Positions 2,863 to 36,210 of a DNA stretch of 36,210 nt are shown one piece after another. The position numbers were made by a program, and so were the translations under genes. Location of the stretch: positions 1 through 36,210 of the IMG/VR virus record IMGVR_UViG_3300036801_000145; one strand, written 5' to 3'. The notes beneath the pieces are model-generated. The model saw nothing but the letters and a program-made list of their open reading frames with translations, had not been told where the DNA came from and did not search any database. The DNA comes from a virus. Each line of letters starts with the position of its first letter. Position 1 is the first letter of the stretch.

Positions 2863-3336
2863 CTAGTAGGGCCAAGAAAGCCGCAGTTCTTCGAAATGAA
2901 TGAACAGGAAGACTCCGCTGTTACCATTCGCTTGCGCATACAATGTGGTACCGGGGGATATGATAAGATCGAACGGTGGCTGCCAGGCGCCACTTACCGT
3001 AGTCGTATAATACCCAGTGGTACCGTCTGTATACGTAAGTGTCGGGCCGGATCCAGTAACAACGCTCAAGACGTTAGTGATCGAAGTCCAGGTAGCACCC
3101 GATTTGGACGTAGCAGTCGCGGCGGGAGCACCTTGGCGCATAGGCAGTGGTGTGACAGCAGTACCCCCGCTGGTTCCTCCCACTAAGTATGTACTACATT
3201 GTATGGTGTTACCGGAACCCGTACCGCCATCGGCCGAATTAAAAGAGACTTGAGCAATCCGAATTTCGGACGAGACGGGAGTAACGGTTAATGAGCCACT
3301 GCTGCTCACGCCGGTATTAGCTACATACGCCGTCAT
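2863..3336 (-). CDS. Minor tail or appendage protein, paralogue 2 of a tandem pair
   Basis: 157 residues beginning MTAYVANTGVSSSG and ending FEELRLSWPY. It is clearly homologous along its full length to the next gene upstream (3355-3831). Shared blocks are the Gly-rich segment DGGTGSGN, then LVGGTSGGTAVTPLPMRQGA and ATATSK, and the terminal FEELR-SWPY. The DNA of the central block is almost identical in the two genes. AGGA lies upstream of the ATG. The protein looks all-beta with no catalytic motif. A role in a multi-copy appendage or head/tail decoration is inferred from position and composition. Confidence 0.72.
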   Translation of the reverse strand: MTAYVANTGVSSSGSLTVTPVSSEIRIAQVSFNSADGGTGSGNTIQCSTYLVGGTSGGTAVTPLPMRQGAPAATATSKSGATWTSITNVLSVVTGSGPTLTYTDGTTGYYTTTVSGAWQPPFDLIISPGTTLYAQANGNSGVFLFIHFEELRLSWPY

Positions 3337-5974: not shown

Positions 5975-8900
5975 CTAGCCGCGTTGCGCGGGGACCAAAT
6001 CCGCCAGATTGGTCATCGACGCGTCAACCACGTTCTGCGCGATGACCCGCATCGGAGCCCCGTCCACCATCACGTTGATCGTGGCGTTCACCTCTGGTTT
6101 TATGGTTACCATGCCGGCACTGCCCGCACTAATGTTGTAGTACTCGGCACCGGAACCGGCGGGCGGCAACAACCCCAACGCCCCCAGCGCGGTCATGGCC
6201 TGTTGGGAACCCAGCTTCGGCATGGTCAGCTGGGAGAACTGGGACGACTCCAGCACACTCATCGCGCCGGTGGCTACGTTCTTCGCCCACACATACCCGA
6301 GCATCAACCCAGCATTCGACGCGATCGGTGTAACACCATTCGACGCGGCCGTAATGCCAGCACCGAACCCGCCCGCCAAAGCAGTGTTGTATGTCGTCTG
6401 CGCTGCAGCCGCGGCGTCAGCGGCGGTATTCACCGCCCCAGCACCCAACGACCGCGCCGACGACGACACGACACCCCTACTCTGTTCCATACCAAGGGCG
6501 TAACCCTGACCGGCGAACACGCCGAGCTTCATGAACTCCCGCGCCGGGGAATGCGAATCCTGGCCGTCCTCGGCGCCGCCCTTCCCGGCGTCAGCAACAC
6601 CTTTACCAGCCGCCGCCGCCTCACCCTTACCGGAACTCAAACCACCGGCGTACGAACTCGCCTGCGCGGCACCACCCGCCGCACTCGCACCCTGCGCCGC
6701 GGCCGCCATTCCCAAACTCGCCGCCGCCGCGCCCGCGCCGCCACTCAAACTCGCCGCCGTGGCCGCTCCCATACTCGCCGCTTGAGCTGCCTGCGCCGCC
6801 GCGGATCCAAAACTGGTCGCCGCCGCGCCAGCGCCAGCACCCATATCACCGATTGTGCTCGCCGCCTGCTGTGCCGTGCTTTGCGTCTGGTTGACCGCGG
6901 AATTCAGAGCGGCGTGCCCCTGCGTAGCTTGCTCTTGCTGCGTCTGCTGCTGCTGCTGCGCTTGAGCCGCCGCCTGCACGCCCGTCGTCACCGCCGCGGC
7001 GTTCTGCGACATTCGGCCCAGCCCGGTGTTCGCGGTGCCCACCGCTGAGGTTAAGTCCTGCACCTGCGGAGTTGTGCGCGCCGCGGCCTGACCGAGGTCA
7101 GGTACTCCTCGCACCCCGGAACCAGGGCCTAAACCCTGAGGCCCTTGCGGTCCCTGAGGCATCGAAGGTGGGGTCTTTGAATCCCTATTCGCCTCGACCC
7201 AATCCTTATGGGCATCCATCCACGACCGCTGTGAGTCCCACTCCTTCTTGTCCCCGAAGTACCCCTCGGTCACCCTACCCGTGACGGGATCAACCTCGGG
7301 TGTCCCGAACTCGTTGGGGTCGAAGGTGTGCCAGCCGGTCACATCAGCCAGTGGGCCATACGAAATCATGCTGCGGTCAAACTGGTGGGTTTGATTCGGC
7401 TCTCTGTCCTGAGCGAATACGTGGTGGGGGCTAATCAGCTTGTCCGGGTCCTCTTGCGGCGGTGGCGCACCTACCGGCGGTGTTCCAAACGGTGTCCCCC
7501 CGACGAAGCCGCCACCGCCGGCACTCCCGACGTCGCTGGGCCTCCCTTGGCCCATTTGCTCGGGCGGACGCAAACCAGGGCCAGCACCCATGATGATCGC
7601 GGAACCACCGGCACCCATCTGACCCAAACCGCTACCGCCGCCGCCACCGGAGGTCGTCCACCCCTTCGGTATCGTGTAGGTACCATCCGGGTTCTGCACC
7701 AACAACGGCTGCTGCCCCTTGCCGCCCCCGCCACCTTTCAGCGGCGCCAGGCCCTCGTCCTTCCGCGCCTCCTTCTGCGCCTGCTTCCAGAGGGACTGCT
7801 GCTGCGTCAAAGGCAACGGCGCGGCCTGAGGGTCCTCGTGAGGGATGAACTGGTTCCCCGGAGTGAAGCCGCCCTGCGCGCCATACGTGCCACCAGTGAT
7901 GTACTGGTCACCCGACGGGAGCTGGGTGGTGGTCAAATCGGAGTAGCCGCCACCCATCCCCGGAGTGACCTCATGCAACCGGCTGATCCCACCCGGAGTG
8001 GACTCATACGTGGAGGAGCCGCCGCCGGTGAACTGGTTCTCGTACGCTACCGAACCGCCCTCGCCCTTCCGCCCCCGGAACAGCCCCTGAGGGGTAGCAA
8101 CCGTCCCACCCGGAGCCTCCAGCACCCCCTTATCCACATCCGGGATCGGCAATGCCTTCGGACCCTTCGGAGCAGGCGGACCCGTCGGACCACCCTTCGA
8201 AGGCGGGGTCTTATCAAACGCATCCGTCGGCATCCCTTGCGCGCCGATCCCCATCGGGGTCGTCACGCCAGGGGTTTGCAACGACTCCCCGTATGAGGGA
8301 AGTGTGCTCTCCGCCACCCCCGCAAGGGCACCAGCCCCGAGTCCCGGAAGACCTGCTACCGCACCGCCCGCACCCGCATCCTGGATAACGCTCTGGACGG
8401 CGCCCCGTACATCCTTATCCGGAATCAGGCTCGTGGCGGCGTCAAGACCGAGCCCGACGGCCCCCATCTTCCCTTTGCTGGTTACCCCCAGGCCCTTCGC
8501 CACCCCCATGCCACCCAGGGCGGTCATCAATCCGGCGGTAGTGTCCTGTCCCTCGGCCTGCTGATAGTCCGTCAACGCCCCGATGCCGGCACCGGCTAGA
8601 CCGCCGCCCTTACCGCCGAGCTTGTACCCAGCAAAGGCCCCGGCACCCGCTGAGGTCAATGCTCCGGCGATCTTGTCGGAGGTGCCCGGCTTATCACCCA
8701 GCACATCCCCCAACGTATTGGCGATATCCCCGACAGCGGCGGCCAGCGGCGCACCGGCGTTCACCACGCCCGCAACCACATCGGAGATACCGGCCTGCGT
8801 GCCTGGCTGCCCGAACGCCCGGATCACATTTGCCTGGCCCGCAACCGACGCGGGCGACCCAAAACCTCTTAGTAAGGAACTACCCACTTCTCCCAGATCA

Positions 8901-28619: not shown

Positions 28620-28670
28620 ATGCCCCAAGCAGCCACCACCACCACCCCGCCGGCACCAGCTCACGCGCGA

Positions 28671-28706
28671 GTGATCAACTCCGAGTTGATCACTGAGGAC
28701 TCCTCA
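28671..28706. promoter_or_regulatory. Operator palindromes upstream of a consensus promoter
   Basis: An 11-bp perfect inverted repeat with a 1-bp centre (28671-28693; arms GTGATCAACTC / GAGTTGATCAC) is directly followed by another perfect palindrome TGAGGA-C-TCCTCA (28694-28706). A further half-site, CAGTTGATC, touches the -35 box. This arrangement is typical of a repressor or activator binding region. Confidence 0.7.
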
Positions 28707-28713
28707 GTTGATC

Positions 28714-28742
28714 TTGACATCTGCTCCGGCGTGTGGTATGAT
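28714..28742 (+). promoter_or_regulatory. Sigma-70-type consensus promoter
   Basis: TTGACA (28714-28719), a 17-bp spacer and TATGAT (28737-28742) with an extended TGG in front. The start codon ATG at 28749 follows 6 nt after the -10 box, so the transcript should be leaderless. This is the best promoter in the window and it is bordered by operators. Confidence 0.85.
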
Positions 28743-28748
28743 CATTCT

Positions 28749-28922
28749 ATGATGATCAGCCACCCCGAGACCCCCTTCTCCTCCCTCACCGTGCGCCAGC
28801 TCGAAGACCTCGGCGACGCCATCGATCAGGTCGCCCTCACCGTGCCGGGCACCGACCACCTGGCGGCCACCCTGGTCGAGCTAGAGGCCGAGATCACCCG
28901 CCGCGTGCTCGGTCAGGACTGA
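28749..28922 (+). CDS. Small hypothetical protein under an operator-controlled promoter
   Basis: 57 residues (MMISHPETPFSSLTVRQLED, then ATLVELEAEITRRVLGQD), acidic and helical. I prefer the ATG at 28749 because it lies at the predicted transcription start of the consensus promoter. The frame also opens from an ATG at 28620 behind a TAGGCT box, which would add 43 residues and put the operators inside the gene. The protein has no recognised family. As the first gene after the control region it may be an early regulator. Confidence 0.6.
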   Translation: MMISHPETPFSSLTVRQLEDLGDAIDQVALTVPGTDHLAATLVELEAEITRRVLGQD

Positions 28923-29272
28923 CCGCCTGCGTGGGCCCGGAGTGTGACCGGGCCGGCGCTGGTCGCCAGACCAAGAATTCCATGATCGGAAAGCCCCACC
29001 CGTGAGGGCCGATGTCGCTACCGATCCCCGCTACCGGGCCGCCCCGTAGGGAGCAGTCCTGTCGCTCGCCCGACTAAGGAACCACCCGCGAGTCCCCTCG
29101 ACCACGCCGGAACGCCGGCAGGGATGATCTTGAAAGAGATCGAGGTGCGCGGTGAAGGCCAGTCGGCACATAGGGCGCCAGGTCCTCGCAGGGCCGCGAA
29201 TCCGTAACCGGGATGATCACACGGCCGCGCTCACGCGCATGCCAGAATGATCACCTGAACAGCACTCCGGCG
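28923..29272 (+). other. 350-bp gap with hairpins and no confident gene
   Basis: No gene longer than 30 codons is convincing. A hairpin GGCCCGG-loop AGTGTGA-CCGGGCC (28934-28954) followed by GGTC-GCCA-GACC (28961-28972) has the same two-hairpin layout as the gene leaders further right, but without the CCCCAGCC motif. A GATCT/AGATC hairpin lies at about 29127-29142. A 27-codon frame at 29124-29207 begins MILKEIEVRGEGQ but lacks a clear ribosome site. The region could hold a structured RNA or be the remains of deleted genes. Confidence 0.4.
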
Positions 29273-29341
29273 CCCGCGCGTGACACGCGGGTAGCTGGTG
29301 GCCGCTCAGGCCAACACTGCCCCAGCCAACGAAAGAAGATC
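29273..29341 (+). promoter_or_regulatory. Two-hairpin leader plus start-associated motif, copy A
   Basis: Hairpin 1: CCCGCG, loop CGTGACA, CGCGGG (29273-29291). Hairpin 2: GGCC, loop GCTCA, GGCC (29300-29312). Then GCCCCAGCCAAC from 29319, a GAAAGAAGA purine stretch and GATC-ATG. Confidence 0.6.
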
Positions 29342-29527
29342 ATGACACTGTTCACCCGCCGCACCCGGCCGCCCGAACCCGCGATGCCCGTCACCCAACT
29401 ACCCGCATGGCTCAACCGCGAACTGCCCGCGTGGTTCGCCGCGGCCGTGCTCGCCGAAGTCGCGGAGCAGGGTGGGAACACCCAGGGCACGGCCTACAGC
29501 CGGCTCATGACCGGGACGCTGTACTGA
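29342..29527 (+). CDS. Small hypothetical protein
   Basis: 61 residues (MTLFTRRTRPPEPAMPVTQL) with a Pro-rich basic N-terminus and a short amphipathic C-terminal part (AWFAAAVLAEVAEQGGNTQG). The start is set by the leader A motif, which ends in GATCATG. The frame extends upstream to 29213 through the leader, which argues against an earlier start. Its TGA overlaps the ATG of the next gene. No family recognised. Confidence 0.6.
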   Translation: MTLFTRRTRPPEPAMPVTQLPAWLNRELPAWFAAAVLAEVAEQGGNTQGTAYSRLMTGTLY

Positions 29528-29658
29528 TGATCGAGTACACCGACGACCGGTGCCCCACGTGCGGTAGTTGGCCGCACCCGGATATGCGGTTCGAGCACGC
29601 GTTCGCGGCCGTGTTCAACGCGATATTCAACGCTCTTGAATGGGCCACGCGAGCCTGA
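29527..29658 (+). CDS. Very small protein with C-x2-C motif
   Basis: 43 residues (MIEYTDDRCPTCGSWPHPDM), coupled to the previous gene by a TGATG overlap. The C-P-T-C-G pair followed by a hydrophobic helix (FAAVFNAIFNALEWA) suggests a half zinc-ribbon or a membrane-interfacial peptide. Too short to assign; the coupling is the main support. Confidence 0.5.
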   Translation: MIEYTDDRCPTCGSWPHPDMRFEHAFAAVFNAIFNALEWATRA

Positions 29659-29670
29659 CTGAATCATCGA

Positions 29671-29737
29671 GCGGCCGGCAGGGAATGCGACCCTGCCGCG
29701 CCGCGGGTAATTCAGCCCCAGTCAAAAGGATCAACCA
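29671..29737 (+). promoter_or_regulatory. Two-hairpin leader plus start-associated motif, copy B
   Basis: Hairpin 1: outer GCGG/CCGC, inner CGGCAGGG, loop AATGCGA, CCCTGCCG (29671-29704). Hairpin 2: GGGT, loop AATTCA, GCCC with a U-G pair (29705-29718). Its 3' arm merges into CCCCAGTCAAAAGGA, ahead of ATG 29738. Confidence 0.7.
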
Positions 29738-30223
29738 ATGGCATCGATCACTTGCCGGGCCGGCGTCGCCGGCCCGCACACCCACACCACGGTTGCCGAA
29801 GTACGCAACCACTACGGCAGGGCCAGCACCGCGGCCCCTCTCTCCGAACCCGCTTGGAAGCTCAACAAGCGGCAGGCGCTCGATACCGTGCTGAACGCGC
29901 CGGCCCGGCCCGAAGTACCCGCCGGCCGATACGCGCTCCGCACAGACGACACGGTCCGGTTCTACCGGGTCGACCGACCGACAAAGGGCCAGTGGGCCCA
30001 CTACACGTTCGTCACCCGCCAGGCTGGCGATGACGAGTGGCCGGTCCGTAGCACGATCGAACGGCAGTCCCTCCTTGGCCGCATCAGCGAGGACATCGCC
30101 GCGGCAAGCAAGCTGTACGGCACCGAGATCGGAGCGTGTGGTGTCTGCGGACGCACGCTCACCGACGAGACATCGCGCGCCGCGGGAATCGGGCCGATCT
30201 GCGCGACCAAAACCGGTTGGTAG
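29738..30223 (+). CDS. DUF6011-like protein
   Basis: 161 residues. The C-terminal end (CGVCGRTLTDETSRAAGIGP then ICA) matches the DUF6011 pattern C-G-x-C-G-R-x-L-T-D-x-x-S...G-I-G-P-x-C, common in actinophage early genes. It probably binds zinc through the Cys residues. Residues 60-120 contain RYALRTDDTVRFYRVDRPTK and a second beta-rich stretch (AHYTFVTRQAGDDEWPV), which fits a small beta domain preceding the zinc motif. No enzymatic function is known to me. The start is given by leader B. Confidence 0.75.
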   Translation: MASITCRAGVAGPHTHTTVAEVRNHYGRASTAAPLSEPAWKLNKRQALDTVLNAPARPEVPAGRYALRTDDTVRFYRVDRPTKGQWAHYTFVTRQAGDDEWPVRSTIERQSLLGRISEDIAAASKLYGTEIGACGVCGRTLTDETSRAAGIGPICATKTGW

Positions 30224-30234
30224 TTCTAAGAGCA

Positions 30235-30305
30235 CAGCGGCCGGCAGGGGATGCGACCCTGCCGCGCTGCGGGCAACTTAGCCCTCCCCCAGCCAAGGAG
30301 AGATC
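30235..30305 (+). promoter_or_regulatory. Two-hairpin leader plus start-associated motif, copy C
   Basis: Hairpin 1: outer CAGCG/CGCTG, inner CGGCAGGG, loop GATGCGA, CCCTGCCG (30235-30269). Hairpin 2: GGGC, loop AACTTA, GCCC (30271-30284). Then CCCCAGCCAAGGAGAGATC and ATG 30306. Against copy B the outer stem changes on both arms and the U-G pair becomes C-G. Confidence 0.72.
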
Positions 30306-30665
30306 ATGACCGACTTCAACCTGACCACCGTGACCGAGGACGAGATCGCAGCCCTGGACACCACGGCTCTGCGCACCCTGGCCACCAAGGCGCTACGGAG
30401 CTACGACCTACGCACCACGGTCGCCTCGATCGCGCTGCGATCCGAGGTGATCGAGCACGCGGGAGCGCTGACCGTCGTGGACAAGCTAGTCCAGGTACTC
30501 AAGGCGGCGTACAAGGGACAGGATGCCCAGCTCCACCGCCAGTACGGCGGATCGGTGGAGGTGACCGTGTGGAACGAGGATGAGCAGCTCCGCGGCAGCC
30601 TGAACTACGCGCGCCGCGTGGCCGTCAAGGAAGCCGAGGCGGCCGAGGAGAACACGGAGGACTGA
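30306..30665 (+). CDS. Hypothetical helical acidic protein
   Basis: 119 residues (MTDFNLTTVTEDEIAALDTT), helical throughout and with an acidic C-terminus (EAEAAEENTED). A segment QLHRQYGGSVEVTVWNEDEQ forms the only beta-like part. No motif or family recognised. Leader C defines the start. It is one of a series of separately led genes rather than part of a tight operon. Confidence 0.65.
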   Translation: MTDFNLTTVTEDEIAALDTTALRTLATKALRSYDLRTTVASIALRSEVIEHAGALTVVDKLVQVLKAAYKGQDAQLHRQYGGSVEVTVWNEDEQLRGSLNYARRVAVKEAEAAEENTED

Positions 30666-30682
30666 TCGAGTTCGGTGCTCAG

Positions 30683-30751
30683 CGTGGCCACTAGGTCACG
30701 TTGGGCGCAGTGTCCGATCAGGACAAACCCAGCCAACGAGGAGAAACGATC
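30683..30751 (+). promoter_or_regulatory. Two-hairpin leader plus start-associated motif, copy D
   Basis: Hairpin 1: CGTGGCC, loop ACTA, GGTCACG (30683-30700, one G-U pair). Hairpin 2: TGTCC, loop GATCA, GGACA (30711-30725). Then ACCCAGCCAACGAGGAGAAA and GATC-ATG. Sequence differs almost completely from copies B and C, but the layout is the same. Confidence 0.62.
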
Positions 30752-31078
30752 ATGAGCACTACCGGCCGATCCGCGCTCCGCAACCTGATCGCCATGCAAT
30801 GGGATGGTGGCGACGCCCAAGCTTCTGTATTCAGCCCGTACTTCGGTGTCTGCACCGTACTCTACGTGGCTGGTGAATACGTGCCGGCTGAGGCTGAGTT
30901 TCAACCTAGCCCGTTCCTCAGTGACAACGGTGATCTCTCGCAAGTAAAGGACGAGTGGCCAGACGCTGAGATCGCTGAAATGTATGAGGCTGGTGAAGTC
31001 ACCGGCGACGACCTGGTCTACTGGGCCCGCGTGCTCAGCCGCGCCGCCGACCTTATCCCTGCTGACCAGCGTTACTAA
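30752..31078 (+). CDS. Hypothetical ArdA-like acidic protein
   Basis: 108 residues from ATG after leader D. The middle (SVFSPYFGVCTVLYVAGEYV) and the acidic end (VKDEWPDAEIAEMYEAGEVT) give a net negative charge. An acidic, small beta-alpha protein of this length in early phage genes can be a DNA mimic, but there is no diagnostic motif and that reading is speculative. The codon choice is less GC-rich than in the neighbours, which hints at recent acquisition. Confidence 0.6.
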   Translation: MSTTGRSALRNLIAMQWDGGDAQASVFSPYFGVCTVLYVAGEYVPAEAEFQPSPFLSDNGDLSQVKDEWPDAEIAEMYEAGEVTGDDLVYWARVLSRAADLIPADQRY

Positions 31079-31114
31079 GGGTCTGCTAAAATGAACCTGT
31101 AGTTAACCCCGTGC

Positions 31115-31211
31115 TATACTGGAGGTGAACCACGCGCCATCCGGCAGGGCTAGTCCCTGCCGGTCACGGGCGGTTCAGCCCAATACGCCCCAGCCAAGGG
31201 AGAGAACGATC
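31115..31211 (+). promoter_or_regulatory. Promoter plus two-hairpin leader, copy E
   Basis: TGC-TATACT (-10 at 31115-31120) is followed by the leader. Hairpin 1: CCGGCAGGG, loop CTAGT, CCCTGCCGG (31141-31163). Hairpin 2: GGGC, loop GGTTCA, GCCC (31168-31181). Then GCCCCAGCCAAGGGAGAGAA and GATC-ATG. About 70 bp are nearly identical to copy F. Confidence 0.75.
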
Positions 31212-31424
31212 ATGAAGTACGGGGTACAGATCAGCACAACGGTAACCGTGATAGTCGAAGTCGAAGCCGACGACGAAGACACAGCACAGGATGCGGTGCT
31301 CTACGGCAACGCACTACCACGCTACCCGGTGGCGGTCACAGCCACCGACGGATGCCCCCCGAGCACACAGGTCAGCGTTGCCAACAAGGGATGGGAAATC
31401 GACGAGTCATGGCAAGTGCCGTGA
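31212..31424 (+). CDS. Small hypothetical beta protein
   Basis: 70 residues (MKYGVQISTTVTVIVEVEAD), probably a small beta-alpha-beta domain: a strand, an acidic helix (DDEDTAQDAVLYGNAL) and another strand. The end overlaps the next gene by 16 bp in a different frame. Leader E sets the start. No family recognised. Confidence 0.65.
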   Translation: MKYGVQISTTVTVIVEVEADDEDTAQDAVLYGNALPRYPVAVTATDGCPPSTQVSVANKGWEIDESWQVP

Positions 31425-32023
31425 TTCCCACGACCGCCGACGACGCAACGCACGCGCGCTACGTGGCCAACATCATCGCCGCGTGGCTGCGTGCAACCCC
31501 GGCCCAGCTCACCAGCGGCCGGACGTGGTACCAGGTGGCAAACGGTGTGGCCACCATGGTTGCCGACGGCAACACGCGTGCCGGGGCCGGCGTCATCGCC
31601 GCGCTCTCGCCGCAGAAAGCCTGGCAGGCGAACATCAAGCTCGCCGCGGGCGCGTTCGCCTCGGGCGAGGTACGTGGGCAGGTCAAAGACGCTGTCGGCA
31701 AAGCCGAACGCATCATGCTCGGAGAAGACCCGCTCGACGTGCTACCGGACGATTCCAAGACATGGAACTTCTTTCGGTGCATCGTCGACCCGGAGGATGC
31801 CGACGCTGTGGTAATCGACCGGCACGCGCACGACATCGCGGTAGGCGAGATCTACGGCAACCGTGACCGCAGCCTATCTAACAAGCGTCGATACGCCGCG
31901 CTGGCGCACGCGTACCGGGAAGCAGCGCGGCGACTCGGCGAACTTCCGAGTGTGGTCCAGGCTGCAACGTGGGTCGCGCAAGTCGAGTCGGTAGCGCACC
32001 TGCCACACCGACCAAAACCGTAA
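31409..32023 (+). CDS. Conserved actinophage protein, possibly DUF7178-like
   Basis: 204 residues from ATG at 31409, inside the previous gene's end; an upstream frame to 31352 has no ribosome site. Key segments are GVIAALSPQKAWQANIKLAA, KAERIMLGEDPLDVLPDDSK, WNFFRCIVDP and AVVIDRHAHDIAVGEIYGN, ending with AAARRLGELPSVVQAATWVA. The layout (helix with SPQ..W..N, then DRHA near residue 140, then a Gln-Ala-Trp helix) recalls a phage family I know as DUF7178-like, similar in outline to HhH-GPD base-excision folds. The conserved D-R-H-A looks like an active or binding site. The family name is uncertain. Confidence 0.65.
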   Translation: MASAVIPTTADDATHARYVANIIAAWLRATPAQLTSGRTWYQVANGVATMVADGNTRAGAGVIAALSPQKAWQANIKLAAGAFASGEVRGQVKDAVGKAERIMLGEDPLDVLPDDSKTWNFFRCIVDPEDADAVVIDRHAHDIAVGEIYGNRDRSLSNKRRYAALAHAYREAARRLGELPSVVQAATWVAQVESVAHLPHRPKP

Positions 32024-32032
32024 TACCAGAGG

Positions 32033-32124
32033 TATACTGGAGGTGAACCACGCGCCATCCGGCAAGGCTAGTCCTTGCCGGTCACGGGCGGTTCAGCCCA
32101 ATGCCCCAGCCAAGAAGGAAGATC
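32033..32124 (+). promoter_or_regulatory. Promoter plus two-hairpin leader, copy F
   Basis: TATACT (32033-32038) and the leader repeat copy E. Hairpin 1: CCGGCAAGG, loop CTAGT, CCTTGCCGG (32059-32081). Hairpin 2: GGGC, loop GGTTCA, GCCC (32086-32099). Then GCCCCAGCCAAGAAGGAA and GATC-ATG. The G-C pair in the stem of copy E is A-T here, a clear compensatory change. Confidence 0.78.
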
Positions 32125-33201
32125 ATGACGAGTCCATTCGCGCGCATTGCCGCGGCGCGGGGTGAGGAGGTTCCTAAGCCTCGTCACCTACACGCCGTGG
32201 ACGATGAGCCCACCATTCCGGAGAGCAATGCTCGCCGGCCCACCCTGCTCGCCGATGTCATCGGTCAGCCGGAACTCACGAGTCAACTGCGTACGCATAT
32301 CAACTACGGTGTACGCCGCGGCCGCCCGCCCGGTCACGTCCTACTGGACGGTCCGTCGGGCTACGGCAAGACATCGTTCGCTCGCGCCATTCACGGCGAG
32401 CTGATCGAGCGCGGAATCACCTCGCGGCTCATTACCGTCATGCCGAACGCGATCCCGACCACGGACAAGCTGGCGGTGCAGTTCTCGCAGCTACAGGCGA
32501 ACGATGTGCTCTTCCTGGACGAGATTCACGGATTCAGGCAGTCCGTGCAGGAGGGCCTCTATACCGCCATGGAGGACGGCTACGTGGTCACATCCAGCGA
32601 CAACGGCGCGCAGGTAGTACCGCTACCGCCGTTCACGCTGGTTGCGGGTACCACCGAACCAGCCAAGATCCTCGCGCCCCTGCGTGGTCGATTCGACCTC
32701 ACCGGTCACCTGACCAGGTACGCCGAGGAGGATCTCGCACTGCTCTTGCAGTCGCACGCGTCCGAATCTGAGGTCACGCTGACCGACGATGCGGCGCTGG
32801 TGATCGCGGAAGCGAGCCGGTTCACACCCAGGACGGCAATCAAGAACCTGGGCAAGGTGCGCGCGTACGCGGAAGAGTTGGCCGACGCGGTCGCCACCTC
32901 GATCGATGAGGAAACGGCACGCGACGGCCTGGAGTACGCCGGCATCGATGCCTTCGGACTTGACGAACGGGACCGGCGTGTGCTACGCGCGCTCGCGGTG
33001 CAGTTCAAGGGTGGTCCGATCGGGTTGATCCCGCTCGCTACCGCGCTGGGCATGAGCCCAGATGAGCTGCGCAAGGACATCGAGCCTTACCTGATCGCGG
33101 CCGGGCTGGTAGAGCTACACGGCCGTGGTCGCCAAACCACCCGCAAGACCTACCAGGTGCTCGGTCTGCGCGTGCCGCCACTCATGCACGCGTGGCGGTG
33201 A
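32125..33201 (+). CDS. ruvB: RuvB-like Holliday junction branch-migration ATPase
   Basis: 358 residues. Walker A GPSGYGKT at 76-83, Walker B LFLDEIH at 129-135, sensor 1 GTTEP at 175-179, and the Arg-rich PLRGRFD at 185-191 (arginine finger). The order IGQPELTSQLRTHINYGVRR before Walker A and the C-terminal domain (FKGGPIGLIPLATALGMSP, then IEPYLIAAGLVE and a winged-helix end GRGRQTTRKTY) are typical of bacterial RuvB, which is about 340 residues. No ruvA or ruvC is present in the window; the endonuclease VII-like protein could replace RuvC. Expression is driven by leader F. Phage-encoded RuvB is uncommon. Confidence 0.9.
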   Translation: MTSPFARIAAARGEEVPKPRHLHAVDDEPTIPESNARRPTLLADVIGQPELTSQLRTHINYGVRRGRPPGHVLLDGPSGYGKTSFARAIHGELIERGITSRLITVMPNAIPTTDKLAVQFSQLQANDVLFLDEIHGFRQSVQEGLYTAMEDGYVVTSSDNGAQVVPLPPFTLVAGTTEPAKILAPLRGRFDLTGHLTRYAEEDLALLLQSHASESEVTLTDDAALVIAEASRFTPRTAIKNLGKVRAYAEELADAVATSIDEETARDGLEYAGIDAFGLDERDRRVLRALAVQFKGGPIGLIPLATALGMSPDELRKDIEPYLIAAGLVELHGRGRQTTRKTYQVLGLRVPPLMHAWR

Positions 33202-33291
33202 TCTTGCGCCGAACGGTCGCCTTCGTTCGTACACGGTGTGCCCATCATCCGGCGGGCCCGCCTCAAGTTGATCAAGAAAGAAGGAACGATC

Positions 33292-33579
33292 ATGACACGT
33301 GAACTAGACCCTGACGTGCGCTTCCTCGACCTCGACCTAGCCAGGGTCGGTGATGCGCTAGTGCGGCTAGTGCTCACCGCACGGCAACTTGGCCATAAAC
33401 ACGTAGCAGGCACCGCGCAGGACTACTGCCACCCTAGCTCGCCCGAGATGGAATTCGTGCGGGACGCGTTCCTGCGGGCCCCGGAGAAGATCGCCGGACT
33501 GTGGTTCGGCGGCACAGAGAACGCCGTCCGATTCACCTCCGTACTGCTCACCGAGACTATGTCCAGGGCGTCCGAATAG
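33292..33579 (+). CDS. Small hypothetical protein
   Basis: 95 residues from ATG after AAGAAGGAACGATC (33274-33291). The sequence (VRFLDLDLARVGDALVRLVL, then TENAVRFTSVLLTETMSRAS) is helical with one His/Cys-containing loop (HKHVAGTAQDYCHPSS). No family recognised. Upstream bases contain two possible hairpins (CGAACG/CGTTCG at 33210-33229 and a GGCGGG-CCCGCC palindrome at 33251-33262), but not the CCCCAGCC motif, so this leader is a variant. Confidence 0.6.
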   Translation: MTRELDPDVRFLDLDLARVGDALVRLVLTARQLGHKHVAGTAQDYCHPSSPEMEFVRDAFLRAPEKIAGLWFGGTENAVRFTSVLLTETMSRASE

Positions 33580-33584
33580 CGTAC

Positions 33585-33633
33585 GACCAGCGGACGATGT
33601 CGTCGAGGTCCGATGACATCGTTTCCGCTGGTC
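33585..33633 (+). terminator. Large hairpin after the 33292 gene
   Basis: GACCAGCGG (33585-33593) pairs with CCGCTGGTC (33625-33633), and CGATGTC (33595-33601) pairs with GACATCG (33615-33621). This is a 16-bp stem with small bulges and a 13-nt loop. There is no T-run, so it could be a factor-dependent terminator, an RNA-processing hairpin or a recombinase recognition site next to the recombinase gene. Confidence 0.5.
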
Positions 33634-33639
33634 AGAATG

Positions 33640-33712
33640 GGTGCCAGGTGTACGATTGACCTGTACGATGACAATGTAACAGTTAGGTACCTCAAACGGA
33701 CGGACCCCAGCC
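33640..33712 (+). promoter_or_regulatory. Recombinase upstream region with direct repeats
   Basis: TGTACGATTGAC (33649-33660) and TGTACGATGAC (33662-33672) form a near-perfect direct repeat. TTGACC and TACGAT could serve as a -35 and a -10, but the spacing is poor. CCCCAGCC ends at 33712, immediately before the ATG, so here the start-associated motif stands without a Shine-Dalgarno. Confidence 0.4.
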
Positions 33713-34288
33713 ATGACCAAGATCGGATACGCACGTTGCAGCACAGACAAGCAGGAGGTGACCGCGCAGCGTCAGCAGCTCGAAGCACTCGGCGTCGGCA
33801 CGGACCGGCTCTACCTCGATGAGGGGCGCACCGGCACGAACCGCGACCGTCCCCGCCTCGACCAGGCACTTGCCGCGGTCCGAGCGGGCGACACGTTCGT
33901 GGTCACCAAGCTGGACCGGCTCGCGCGCAGCGTGCCGGACGCGCTCGACATCCTCGGCGAGCTGGACAAGCGCGGCGTGCTGTTCGCGCTTGGTGCCAGC
34001 ACCTACGACTGGAAAGACCCGATGGCGAAGCTGTTCCTGCAGATCCTGGCGGTGATCGCCGAGTTCGAGGGCAGCCTGATCAGGCAGCGCACCCGCGAGG
34101 GGATGGCGATCGCACGTGCGAAGGGCAAGCTGAAGGGCAAGCCGCCAAAACTGACCACAGGTCAGCGCGCTGGCCTGCTCCAGATGCACGCGTCCGGGCT
34201 GCACAACATCACCGAGCTGGCCGAGATGTTCCAGGTCAGCCGCCCGACGGTGTACCGCGAGCTGGCGAAGGCTAGGCCAACACCGTGA
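33713..34288 (+). CDS. Small serine recombinase (resolvase/invertase type)
   Basis: 191 residues, the size of Tn3-type resolvases and DNA invertases rather than of large serine integrases. The N-terminal part has YARCSTDKQ with the nucleophile Ser10 and Arg8, then KLDRLARS (catalytic Arg residues at 69 and 72) and FLQILAVIAEFEGSLIRQRT, the long E-helix with its Glu-Arg motif. A C-terminal helix-turn-helix (NITELAEMFQVSRPTVYREL) completes the fold. It could resolve phage multimers, invert a segment or excise a prophage. No typical res site was proven, but two direct-repeat sites and a large hairpin lie just upstream. It ends inside the convergent terminase gene. Confidence 0.88.
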   Translation: MTKIGYARCSTDKQEVTAQRQQLEALGVGTDRLYLDEGRTGTNRDRPRLDQALAAVRAGDTFVVTKLDRLARSVPDALDILGELDKRGVLFALGASTYDWKDPMAKLFLQILAVIAEFEGSLIRQRTREGMAIARAKGKLKGKPPKLTTGQRAGLLQMHASGLHNITELAEMFQVSRPTVYRELAKARPTP

Positions 34289-34742
34289 TCCCGGCCGCCT
34301 GCGCCTGCGCTTCCATCGCCGCCATCTCCTTGGTCAGCTCCATGATCGCGTTATCGATCGTCTCGCCGCTGACCACGGAGATCTCACGGCGCTGAGGCGC
34401 GTCGGCCCCCATCAGCTTGCGGAAGGACTCGTTCCACCCGCGGATCGCGTTCCATGCCTCGGCCCGAGTACGCGGCGACACCTGAGGGTTCTCCGCGATC
34501 TTGAGTAGGTCATTGACCGCGCGGTCATATAGATCGGAGGACTGCACACGCACCGTGTGTACAGCCTCGGCGGGAATGCGGTCGCAGGCTTCTTTGAAGA
34601 TGCCGTGCACCCGCGCAACACTGAGACCCAGCTCTGCGGCAATTACCCGGAACGGAACGTTACTCGAACGACGCTCAACAACGATCGATTCACGCTCAAC
34701 GGTGGTTAGCGTCGTCGGTTTAGTACTCGCAACACCTCCCAT
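34272..34742 (-). CDS. Terminase small subunit-like protein
   Basis: 156 residues on the minus strand. N-terminal helix-turn-helix (PFRVIAAELGLSVARVHGIF), then a helical part (ALDQL-type DLYDRAVNDLLKIAENPQVS), and the conserved-looking AWNAIRGWNESFRKLMGADA followed by PQRREISVVSGETID. The HTH plus the R-x-x-L-x-G-x-D-A-P ending is what I know from small terminase-like proteins of actinophages. If correct, it is separated from terL by about 8 kb and transcribed from its own promoter. The alternative is an unrelated early regulator. It overlaps the end of the recombinase gene by 17 bp. Confidence 0.65.
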   Translation of the reverse strand: MGGVASTKPTTLTTVERESIVVERRSSNVPFRVIAAELGLSVARVHGIFKEACDRIPAEAVHTVRVQSSDLYDRAVNDLLKIAENPQVSPRTRAEAWNAIRGWNESFRKLMGADAPQRREISVVSGETIDNAIMELTKEMAAMEAQAQAAGITVLA

Positions 34743-34904
34743 TTGATAAACTCACCGCCTATGCGTTCGTTGAACGTAAACACTATTCTCAAAATAGTAC
34801 GAGTTGCACGAAGTAATGACTACGGGTACTATGGTACCTGTAACCCTCTCAGCAAGCCCTCTACCAGCACAAAGACCCCAGCCAAAAGCAGCTTGCGTAC
34901 TTGA
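34743..34904. promoter_or_regulatory. Divergent promoter region with palindromes
   Basis: Plus strand: TTGCAC (34804-34809), 17-bp spacer, TACTAT (34827-34832), a good promoter for the genes to the right. Minus strand: TACTAT (34799-34794) could serve the terminase-like gene. Palindromes: GGTACTATGGTACC (34825-34838) over the plus -10, ACTATT-5 nt-AATAGT (34782-34798), and CGTTC-3 nt-GAACG (34764-34776). The second copy of the 14-bp repeat lies at 34770-34783. The start-associated motif (CCCCAGCCAAAAG, 34876-34888) is present but no start codon follows it. Confidence 0.6.
34770..34783 (+). repeat. 14-bp direct repeat, copy 2 (TTGAACGTAAACAC)
   Basis: Identical to 28450-28463 and in the same orientation, 6.3 kb apart. 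The second copy overlaps an inverted repeat (CGTTC...GAACG). Confidence 0.6.
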
Positions 34905-35511
34905 AGCACTACTCGCCGCGTCCGGACAAAAAAGGACGAGATTATCCACCGGCGTATCCACCTAGATCAGCCCTACGCCACGGATAAGGCCACCCTGCTG
35001 CGCTCTGTCGCAGTACCACTGCGCTGCCAGACCATCTCCTGGCAAGGTGCTCGCCACCGCCTCGCCGAGAGCAATGGAGATCATCGGTTACCAGTCGGAT
35101 GTCGAGCGGGCCGAACTGCTCTACACCTCGCTGCTACTGCAGGCCACCACTCAGCTGACACGGGTCCGACCACACCGGCTCTCCGACGAATCGGTCGCCG
35201 CCTACCGTCGCTCCTGGCTGTATGGGTTCGCCACTGCGGTCTACCGGCGACTGCTCGCCGCGGAGCAGAAGGCGGAACAGTCATCCACCGCAGCTGGTGA
35301 ACAGGCGTCCGGAGTCAGCACCGCGCTGGTTCTGGTCGACCGGAAAGCCCAGGTCGAGAAGACGATGACCGAGCTGTTCCCGAACCTTCGCAAGGGTCGG
35401 GGCCGATCTCCCACCGGAACCGGGGCGGGCGCAGGCTACGCTGCGGGCCAGCGCGCTGACCTCGACGGCACCTCGGTAACCCGCAACGCCCGAGGTCAGG
35501 TAACCCAGTGA
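34905..35511 (+). pseudogene. DUF2786-like gene, frameshifted and lacking its N-terminus
   Basis: Two frames together give DUF2786-like C-terminal parts. The first frame (34905 to about 35070) reads KKDEIIHRRIHLDQPYATDK and then ATLLRSVAVPLRCQTISW. The second, shifted by +1, reads MEIIGYQSDVERAELLYTSL, LLQATTQLTRV and RRSWLYGFATAVYRRLLAAE, and ends in DRKAQVEKTM...ELFPNLRKGRGR. The N-terminal block of the family (K-x-x-A-L-L-x-K-A-E) is absent. No start codon follows the ribosome-leader motif. So the gene looks broken by at least one frameshift and a 5' loss; a sequencing slip could explain only the frameshift. The second part alone (GTG at 35047) might still be translated, 154 residues. Confidence 0.7.
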
Positions 35512-35537
35512 ACCACAACCGCAGGAGGAACACGATC

Positions 35538-35738
35538 ATGATCACAGTCCGCATTCGAGTCCCCGACACCGGCGAGCACCTGGACGATGGCACCGATCAA
35601 TGGGACGGCACTTCCCTGGATGCCCTCGAACTCTCGGCGACCGACCTGGGCTGCGAGCCCGGCACCACCTACGTACTAGAGCTTTTCGATACCGAATCCG
35701 GTCGTGCGATCGAGTCGCTCCGCACCGCCGCCCACTGA
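35538..35738 (+). CDS. Small hypothetical protein
   Basis: 66 residues from ATG after CAGGAGGAACACGATC, a strong Shine-Dalgarno; the open frame extends 10 codons upstream through the ribosome site. The sequence begins MITVRIRVPDTGEHLDDGTD and contains LGCEPGTTYVLELFDTESGR, so it is a compact, acidic beta protein. No family known. It stands in the same series as its neighbours but has a conventional leader. Confidence 0.65.
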   Translation: MITVRIRVPDTGEHLDDGTDQWDGTSLDALELSATDLGCEPGTTYVLELFDTESGRAIESLRTAAH

Positions 35739-35784
35739 CCACCCGTACCGTGCCAGTGCGCCCCAGCCAAGAAGGAGCAAGATC

Positions 35785-36162
35785 ATGAACAACATCGACC
35801 ACAACCACTACGACCTGACACCCGCCGCCACTGGCAGTGTCAGCGAACTAGAGGTCGCCTCCGTACTGGGCGGAGCCCGCACGATCCGTACGAACAAGCG
35901 GCAGGTAGCGCTGGAGGAGCTGGCCAGGGAGGTGACCAGCGACGACGTCCCCCGGGAAGCGCCCAAGAAGCTGACCGCGACGAAGATCACCGCCCGCACC
36001 ATCCGGGTCGGCGACTGGATCCGACTCCAGACCGCGGGCGGCACTGTTCATGAGTTCGAGGTCGGCAAACTGCCTCGCCGCGTGATCTACGTAGAGCCCG
36101 TCAACGCGCCCGGCGTCGTGTTCGAGCTAGCACCGCTCGACACAGTAGAACGGTTCCGTTAG
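35785..36162 (+). CDS. Hypothetical protein
   Basis: 125 residues from ATG after GCCCCAGCCAAGAAGGAGCA and GATC. The N-terminal half is helical (ELEVASVLGGARTIRTNKRQ, ALEELAREVTSDDVPREAP). The C-terminal half, TKITARTIRVGDWIRLQTAG followed by EFEVGKLPRRVIYVEPVNAP, has the pattern of a small beta-barrel. No family recognised. Translation is well supported by the start-associated motif. Confidence 0.7.
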   Translation: MNNIDHNHYDLTPAATGSVSELEVASVLGGARTIRTNKRQVALEELAREVTSDDVPREAPKKLTATKITARTIRVGDWIRLQTAGGTVHEFEVGKLPRRVIYVEPVNAPGVVFELAPLDTVERFR

Positions 36163-36182
36163 CCCAGTCCTAGTTCTACCTT

Positions 36183-36210
36183 GCCCCAGCCCAGCACTAC
36201 GGGTACCATG
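36183..36210 (+). promoter_or_regulatory. Start-associated motif of the next gene, cut by the window end
   Basis: GCCCCAGCC (36183-36191) is followed by ACTACGGGTACC and an ATG at 36208-36210, the last three bases of the window. The string ACTACGGGTAC also precedes the -10 box at 34827. The coding part of the gene lies outside. Confidence 0.5.

Follow-up and report, generated by a model that had tools for sequence, protein, structure and literature searches.

Small-gene leaders in an actinophage-like virus carry a conserved three-helix structure where related phages carry type II hammerheads

What RNA structure do the leaders of a row of small phage genes form, and what might it do between those genes? 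The question arises from 36,210 bases of virus record IMGVR_UViG_3300036801_000145 (hereafter, the window), at the right end of which lie small plus-strand genes, including those for a DUF7178 protein, a RuvB-like ATPase and a resolvase. The six leaders (copies A to F; Table 1) named in a preliminary description of this DNA are present there. Each begins with hairpin 1 and hairpin 2, the loop of the latter ending in TCA or TTA; the motif CCCAGCCAA follows, as CCCAGTCAA in B, and then come a purine-rich ribosome-binding site and an ATG. That description took the leaders to be two hairpins. Both hairpins are real, but as independent hairpins they are an incomplete account; the conserved unit has three helices with crossing pairs.

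Side-by-side comparison of the six leaders revealed that the loop of hairpin 2 can in every case pair with a stretch immediately upstream of hairpin 1: TGAACC/GGTTCA (E and F), TGATC/GATCA (D), TGAAT/ATTCA (B), TAAG/CTTA (C), and CCTGA/TCAGG (A). The helix of this (C)TGAnnn stretch with the nnnTCA(G) loop is hereafter P1. Relatives were collected by two routes, a pattern scan and DUF7178 protein orthologues. Among 67 gene-strand candidates selected by the two hairpins and a start codon further 3', with P1 ignored, the loop matched its own upstream segment in 35, whereas 5000 loop swaps averaged 11.9 matches and never exceeded 23 (like the test of hairpin 2, this permutation takes no account of copy relatedness, an effect that the one-per-loop and distinct-arm versions lessen and do not abolish). 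With one candidate per distinct loop, 14 matches were observed and 4.4 expected (permutation maximum 11), and the minus strand gave 3 versus 2.2 expected. Hairpin 2, counted at four or more pairs, was present in 44 of 98 candidates selected by P1 and hairpin 1 with hairpin 2 ignored (11.5 expected, permutation maximum 22); the corresponding numbers were 17 versus 3.8 (maximum 11) for distinct arms and 5 versus 4.2 on the opposite strand. Given that each permutation test ignored the helix under test, the two crossing helices are independently supported. In addition, both sides of P1 change together in relatives on at least nine other actinophage-like contigs.

Hairpin 1 is variable across copies, GC-rich and 6–15 bp long, and the 5–6 nt loop of hairpin 2 is the 3' strand of P1. 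Nine paralogues from one related contig (L024) align gap-free by sequence alone, and 4 of their 10 hairpin 1 pairs are changed on both sides, a number reached by none of 500 shuffles, while slid structures gave 0. Three hairpin 1 pairs are changed on both sides among five copies from L021, and one among B, C and two relatives. Within the six window copies the covariation is slighter than first described: E and F indeed differ by one base on each arm, giving one compensatory pair within otherwise near-identical DNA, but this is the only truly compensatory pair, and the strong evidence comes from relatives instead. The outer-stem compensation claimed between B and C was not recovered, as the 5' outer arm GCGGC is common to both and C only turns a G-C pair into G-U, on one side. 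The U-G/C-G difference reported in their hairpin 2 exists but is likewise one-sided and not compensatory; because such changes are one-sided, hairpin 2 covariation among the six copies was set aside as evidence. Copies A and D keep the layout and also retain a CTGA...TCAG core that was overlooked earlier. When each leader was compared with 200 dinucleotide shuffles, the native fold was better than all 200 for B, C, D and F, and better than 199 for E. The earlier proposal of a selected RNA structure is supported by the hairpin 1 covariation in paralogues and by the loop-swap and arm-swap permutations for the two further helices, and we regard the predicted structure of P1, hairpin 1 and hairpin 2 as well supported.

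These patterns also bear on whether the leaders could act as DNA-level inverted repeats for a DNA-binding protein, as is preferred for the ESAS of cluster K mycobacteriophages (PMC3203893). Read as DNA, TGAnnn...nnnTCA is an inverted repeat, and its position before starts resembles that of ESAS (PMC3203893). This explanation is nevertheless very improbable, as the arms change together, hairpin 1 complementarity is kept with different bases in paralogues, and the signal is confined to the gene strand. The start-associated and extended start-associated sequences (SAS/ESAS) of these phages are multi-copy, lie before the starts of non-structural genes, and combine inverted repeats with a short fixed motif (PMC3203893, PMC12699233). 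The element shares with them multi-copy inverted repeats directly before actinophage start codons and a short fixed motif near the start. The 13 bp SAS sequence GGGATAGGAGCCC had 15 window matches with at most three mismatches, versus 12 expected, and none in the leaders. The 17 bp ESAS repeats were found by their authors not to support RNA pairing (PMC3203893, PMC12699233), whereas pairing in the element covaries and is kept by compensatory changes.

In most of 41 listed copies, the TGA of P1 coincides exactly with the stop codon of an open frame, 45 codons or longer, that lies upstream; in copy D, for example, the TGA at 30663-30665 ends the upstream gene 30306-30665. The upstream stop sits 4 nt (B) and 6 nt (C) before P1. 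C precedes TGA in 31 of 44 copies with hairpin 2, but its conservation is only weakly supported because TGA stops of any kind often follow a C (61 of 121). In E, F and two related copies (L021-8685 and L020-8678), a box reading TATACT or TACAAT ends 5–6 nt before P1, and with a -10 box at this distance transcription would begin at P1. The search for a -35 box to go with these -10-like boxes gave no good match, and the putative promoters before the four copies are thus unproven. The preliminary description had raised transcription starts downstream of the hairpins as a challenge to an RNA structure; no such start is apparent in the sequence, the -10-like box of E and F lying 5' of the whole structure. 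No terminator-like site (GC-rich hairpin plus U tract) was detected in 28900-33000. Judged from sequence, the element is one that spans the gap from a stop codon, or a likely transcript 5' end, to the ribosome-binding site, which lies outside all helices shortly after the end of hairpin 2.

Because P1 crosses hairpin 2, the element would be either a pseudoknot whose first loop contains hairpin 1 or a switch that alternates between two states. The calculated energies of P1 plus hairpin 1 and of hairpin 1 plus hairpin 2 are about 1 kcal/mol apart in B, E and F, and 2–4 kcal/mol apart in A, C and D; of these three, D favors P1 and the other two favor hairpin 2. The near-equality in B, E and F, together with the stop codon held in P1 in most copies, fits a translation switch in which a ribosome on the stop codon would melt P1 so that hairpin 2 forms, or the reverse, and would couple or insulate translation of the next gene. 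We nonetheless consider such a switch unlikely: the ribosome-binding site is free of all helices, and E, F and L021-8685 lie behind -10-like boxes rather than at an upstream stop, yet have the strongest P1.

Downstream of hairpin 2, the tail motif CCCAGCCAA occurs with at most one mismatch 21 times in the window versus 9.6 expected, and no shuffle reaches 21. Six exact copies precede ATCATG, all on the plus strand, and no pairing partner for the motif was seen in the leaders. One occurrence lacks the two-hairpin element (Table 1). Another, at 34877-34885, has no obvious gene or hairpins alongside, and at 33706-33715 CCCAGCC runs directly into the resolvase ATG (33713). The stretch 5' of copy A (28660-29260) holds several TGATCA/GATGATC-type repeats (e.g., ~28675, 29124, 29212 and 29247) that could be operators.

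Table 1 Positions of the leaders, their associated motifs and neighboring genes in the window.
Feature	Position	Strand	Details
Copy A	29254-29313	+	CCTGA 29254-29258 pairs with TCAGG 29306-29310; hairpin 1 29267-29298; hairpin 2 29299-29313, loop GCTCA
Copy B	29659-29718	+	CTGAAT 29659-29664 pairs with ATTCAG 29710-29715; hairpin 1 29671-29704, loop AATGCGA; hairpin 2 29705-29718 (GGGT/GCCC, loop AATTCA)
Copy C	30226-30284	+	CTAAG 30226-30230 pairs with CTTAG 30277-30281; hairpin 1 30237-30270, loop GATGCGA; hairpin 2 30271-30284 (GGGC/GCCC, loop AACTTA)
Copy D	30662-30725	+	CTGATCG 30662-30668 pairs with CGATCAG 30715-30721; hairpin 1 30675-30708; hairpin 2 30711-30725 (TGTCC/GGACA, loop GATCA)
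Copy E	31126-31181	+	TGAACC 31126-31131 pairs with GGTTCA 31172-31177; hairpin 1 31141-31163; hairpin 2 31168-31181
Copy F	32044-32099	+	TGAACC 32044-32049 pairs with GGTTCA 32090-32095; hairpin 1 32059-32081, one compensatory pair relative to E; hairpin 2 32086-32099
-10-like box TATACT	31115-31120	+	5 nt 5' of the P1 strand of copy E; from sequence
-10-like box TATACT	32033-32038	+	5 nt 5' of the P1 strand of copy F; from sequence
Tail motif CCCAGCCAA, copy A	29321-29329	+	Before ribosome-binding site and ATG 29342
Tail motif, other copies	29717 (CCCAGTCAA, B), 30288, 30728, 31189, 32105	+	Same motif
CCCAGCCAA without two-hairpin element	35762-35770	+	Precedes gene at 35785
DUF7178 gene	31409-32023	+	Orthologue query for finding relatives
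RuvB-like AAA+ ATPase gene	32125-33201	+	Downstream of copy F; RuvB_N E=6e-30

The element recurs in relatives of the window. At least seven descriptor copies were found on the gene strand in each of the L020/L040, L021/L041 and L010/L024/L045 contigs, at least three each in L047, L079, L106 and L151, and two each in L146 and L148, the latter resembling L151. A first, looser pseudoknot descriptor had equally many matches on control strands and was dropped. Two relatives identified via the RuvB-like ATPase (L007 and L008) were without the motif, and the pattern matches in L009, L015-L019, L032 and L035-L039 were judged on inspection to be due to chance. Leaders blasted against cultured phages returned nothing credible, and the cultured phages Dagobah, KellEzio, Sheen and VanLee showed no convincing copies in the stretches scanned. 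A scan of genome contigs turned up Streptomyces and one Streptosporangiaceae contig with the DUF7178 gene and no convincing element. When 396 genomes belonging to the same phylum as the Streptosporangiaceae genome were scanned for the pattern, the matches were scattered and look like chance; neither scan pointed to a host. Several copies in L079 (~6574-7835) carry CTCCGAACGGAG after the element, where CTCC could base-pair with the GGAG of the ribosome-binding site. A single hairpin, GGGCCTGACCAGCCC, lies after a TATGAT- or TAAGAT-like box and before CCCAGCC and ATG in L020 (11851-11899) and L021 (11900-11922), and looks like a one-hairpin variant behind a promoter.

The many copies per genome before unrelated small genes, and the short fixed core of (C)TGA and TCA(G) within an otherwise variable structure, could reflect an operator through which an RNA-binding protein, encoded by phage or host, controls the translation or stability of an early-gene regulon. 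Outside this core, however, P1 varies freely, as do hairpin 1 and hairpin 2, even among copies of a single genome, which speaks against such an operator. No candidate protein emerged, although no search aimed at one was made, and we rate the operator as quite unlikely.

A further clue comes from what occupies the same slot in other phages with a DUF7178 gene. Type II hammerheads are known to occur between genes of phages and prophages (PMC3088659). In a 7.8 kb region of the cultured Streptomyces phage Issmi (NC_054667.1, 42844-50643; L014), Rfam type II hammerheads were detected at ten places. They precede most of the genes, are unannotated in the record, and mostly start 1–45 nt past annotated stops and end 11–25 nt before starts. 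Nine were found in L044 (DUF7178 protein identity 70% over the best segment), and a regular expression revealed hammerhead-like sites on the gene strand of most other DUF7178 loci and almost none on the other strand. The DUF7178 gene of Issmi (start 3247 in the region) has a hammerhead at 3152-3236, 10 nt upstream of its start, whereas the DUF7178 gene in L010, L020 and L021 is preceded by the pseudoknot element instead. No Rfam hammerhead was detected in the window or in L010, L020, L021, L047, L079, L106, L146, L148 and L151. The type II hammerhead model (RF02276) had no match in the window at the gathering threshold, nor at E up to 5 in 28900-36210, while the Issmi positive control gave 10. 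Other Rfam families (pistol, twister, riboswitches, etc.) were likewise absent from the window at the gathering threshold, and searching the nine related contigs against Rfam returned tRNAs or nothing.

The element shares with the type II hammerhead a slot just after the upstream stop and just before the ribosome-binding site, two tandem hairpins, about ten copies per early region, a crossing loop interaction, an AGCCAA tail at the 3' end and, in Issmi, the same DUF7178 gene downstream. The Rfam Hammerhead_II consensus ends in AGCCaAAg, resembling CAGCCAA at the same place in the window, and the hammerhead tail pairs with the stem I loop (PMC3088659). The two differ in where the second-hairpin loop finds its partner, which is the stop-codon segment upstream in the element and the tail downstream in the hammerhead, and in that the element has no GAAA or CUGANGA core, no Rfam match and no conserved catalytic nucleotides that we could see.

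Could the element itself be a new small self-cleaving ribozyme that took the hammerhead slot? It fills the slot held by hammerheads in sister phages, and crossing helices are found in several small ribozymes. However, no conserved unpaired core is apparent, the linkers that join the three helices varying in length and sequence, and CUGANGA is missing from the six leaders (CTGANGA occurs at 19 window sites, none of them after hairpin 2 in any leader), as is any Rfam ribozyme match. Self-cleavage looks unlikely from the sequence because no conserved core was seen in the linkers, and a new ribozyme in this slot is rated improbable. Equally improbable is the proposal that phage RNAs of a new type, able to cleave or process themselves, took over the slot independently as stop-codon-anchored pseudoknots that split polycistronic phage mRNA into single-gene units.

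For the leaders as an unreported family of actinophage RNA acting in cis as boundary elements, which would define or protect mRNA ends in place of hammerheads, we see about an even chance. The 5' strand of P1 usually includes the stop codon of the preceding gene or else lies at the likely transcription start, and hairpin 2 ends a short way 5' of the ribosome-binding site. The element would then keep neighboring messages apart, whether it seals mRNA ends, blocks exonucleases or guides a host nuclease, and each small gene could thereby be expressed from its own stable unit. In this way the element would do by structure what hammerheads do by cutting, replacing the type II hammerheads of sister phages. 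The early genes of phage T7 offer a parallel, with RNase III processing hairpins between genes. Like the element, these are intergenic structures that divide an early operon transcript; unlike it, each is a lone hairpin and has no crossing helix tied to a stop codon.

We infer the boundary role from the position of the element and from the replacement of hammerheads, and it appears to be the most economical account. Several observations weigh against it. Its grounds are position and analogy with hammerheads; copy A has the weakest fold, with 8 of 200 shuffles equally good, and the conserved part of this copy is limited to the CTGA/TCAG core and one outer C-G pair; some loops pair at only four positions; the control strands contain a few chance matches, as the descriptor is loose; and the calculated energies fit a pseudoknot and alternating states alike. 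No description of the element was found in a limited literature search, most subscription papers lying outside its scope. The family appears new, whereas its kind, a multi-copy cis-acting phage RNA, is shared with hammerheads and SAS/ESAS.

The element may be a previously unrecognized viral way to mark off messages. The roles proposed for rows of hammerheads between phage genes include cutting transcripts into single-gene units. Phages that have the DUF7178 gene in common carry hammerheads in most gaps in one group and an unrelated pseudoknot in another, which amounts to a natural swap experiment, and the effect on mRNA that hammerhead and pseudoknot share is probably the purpose of the slot. 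Anchoring at the stop codon would tie translation termination to mRNA boundaries in a way that can be tested directly.

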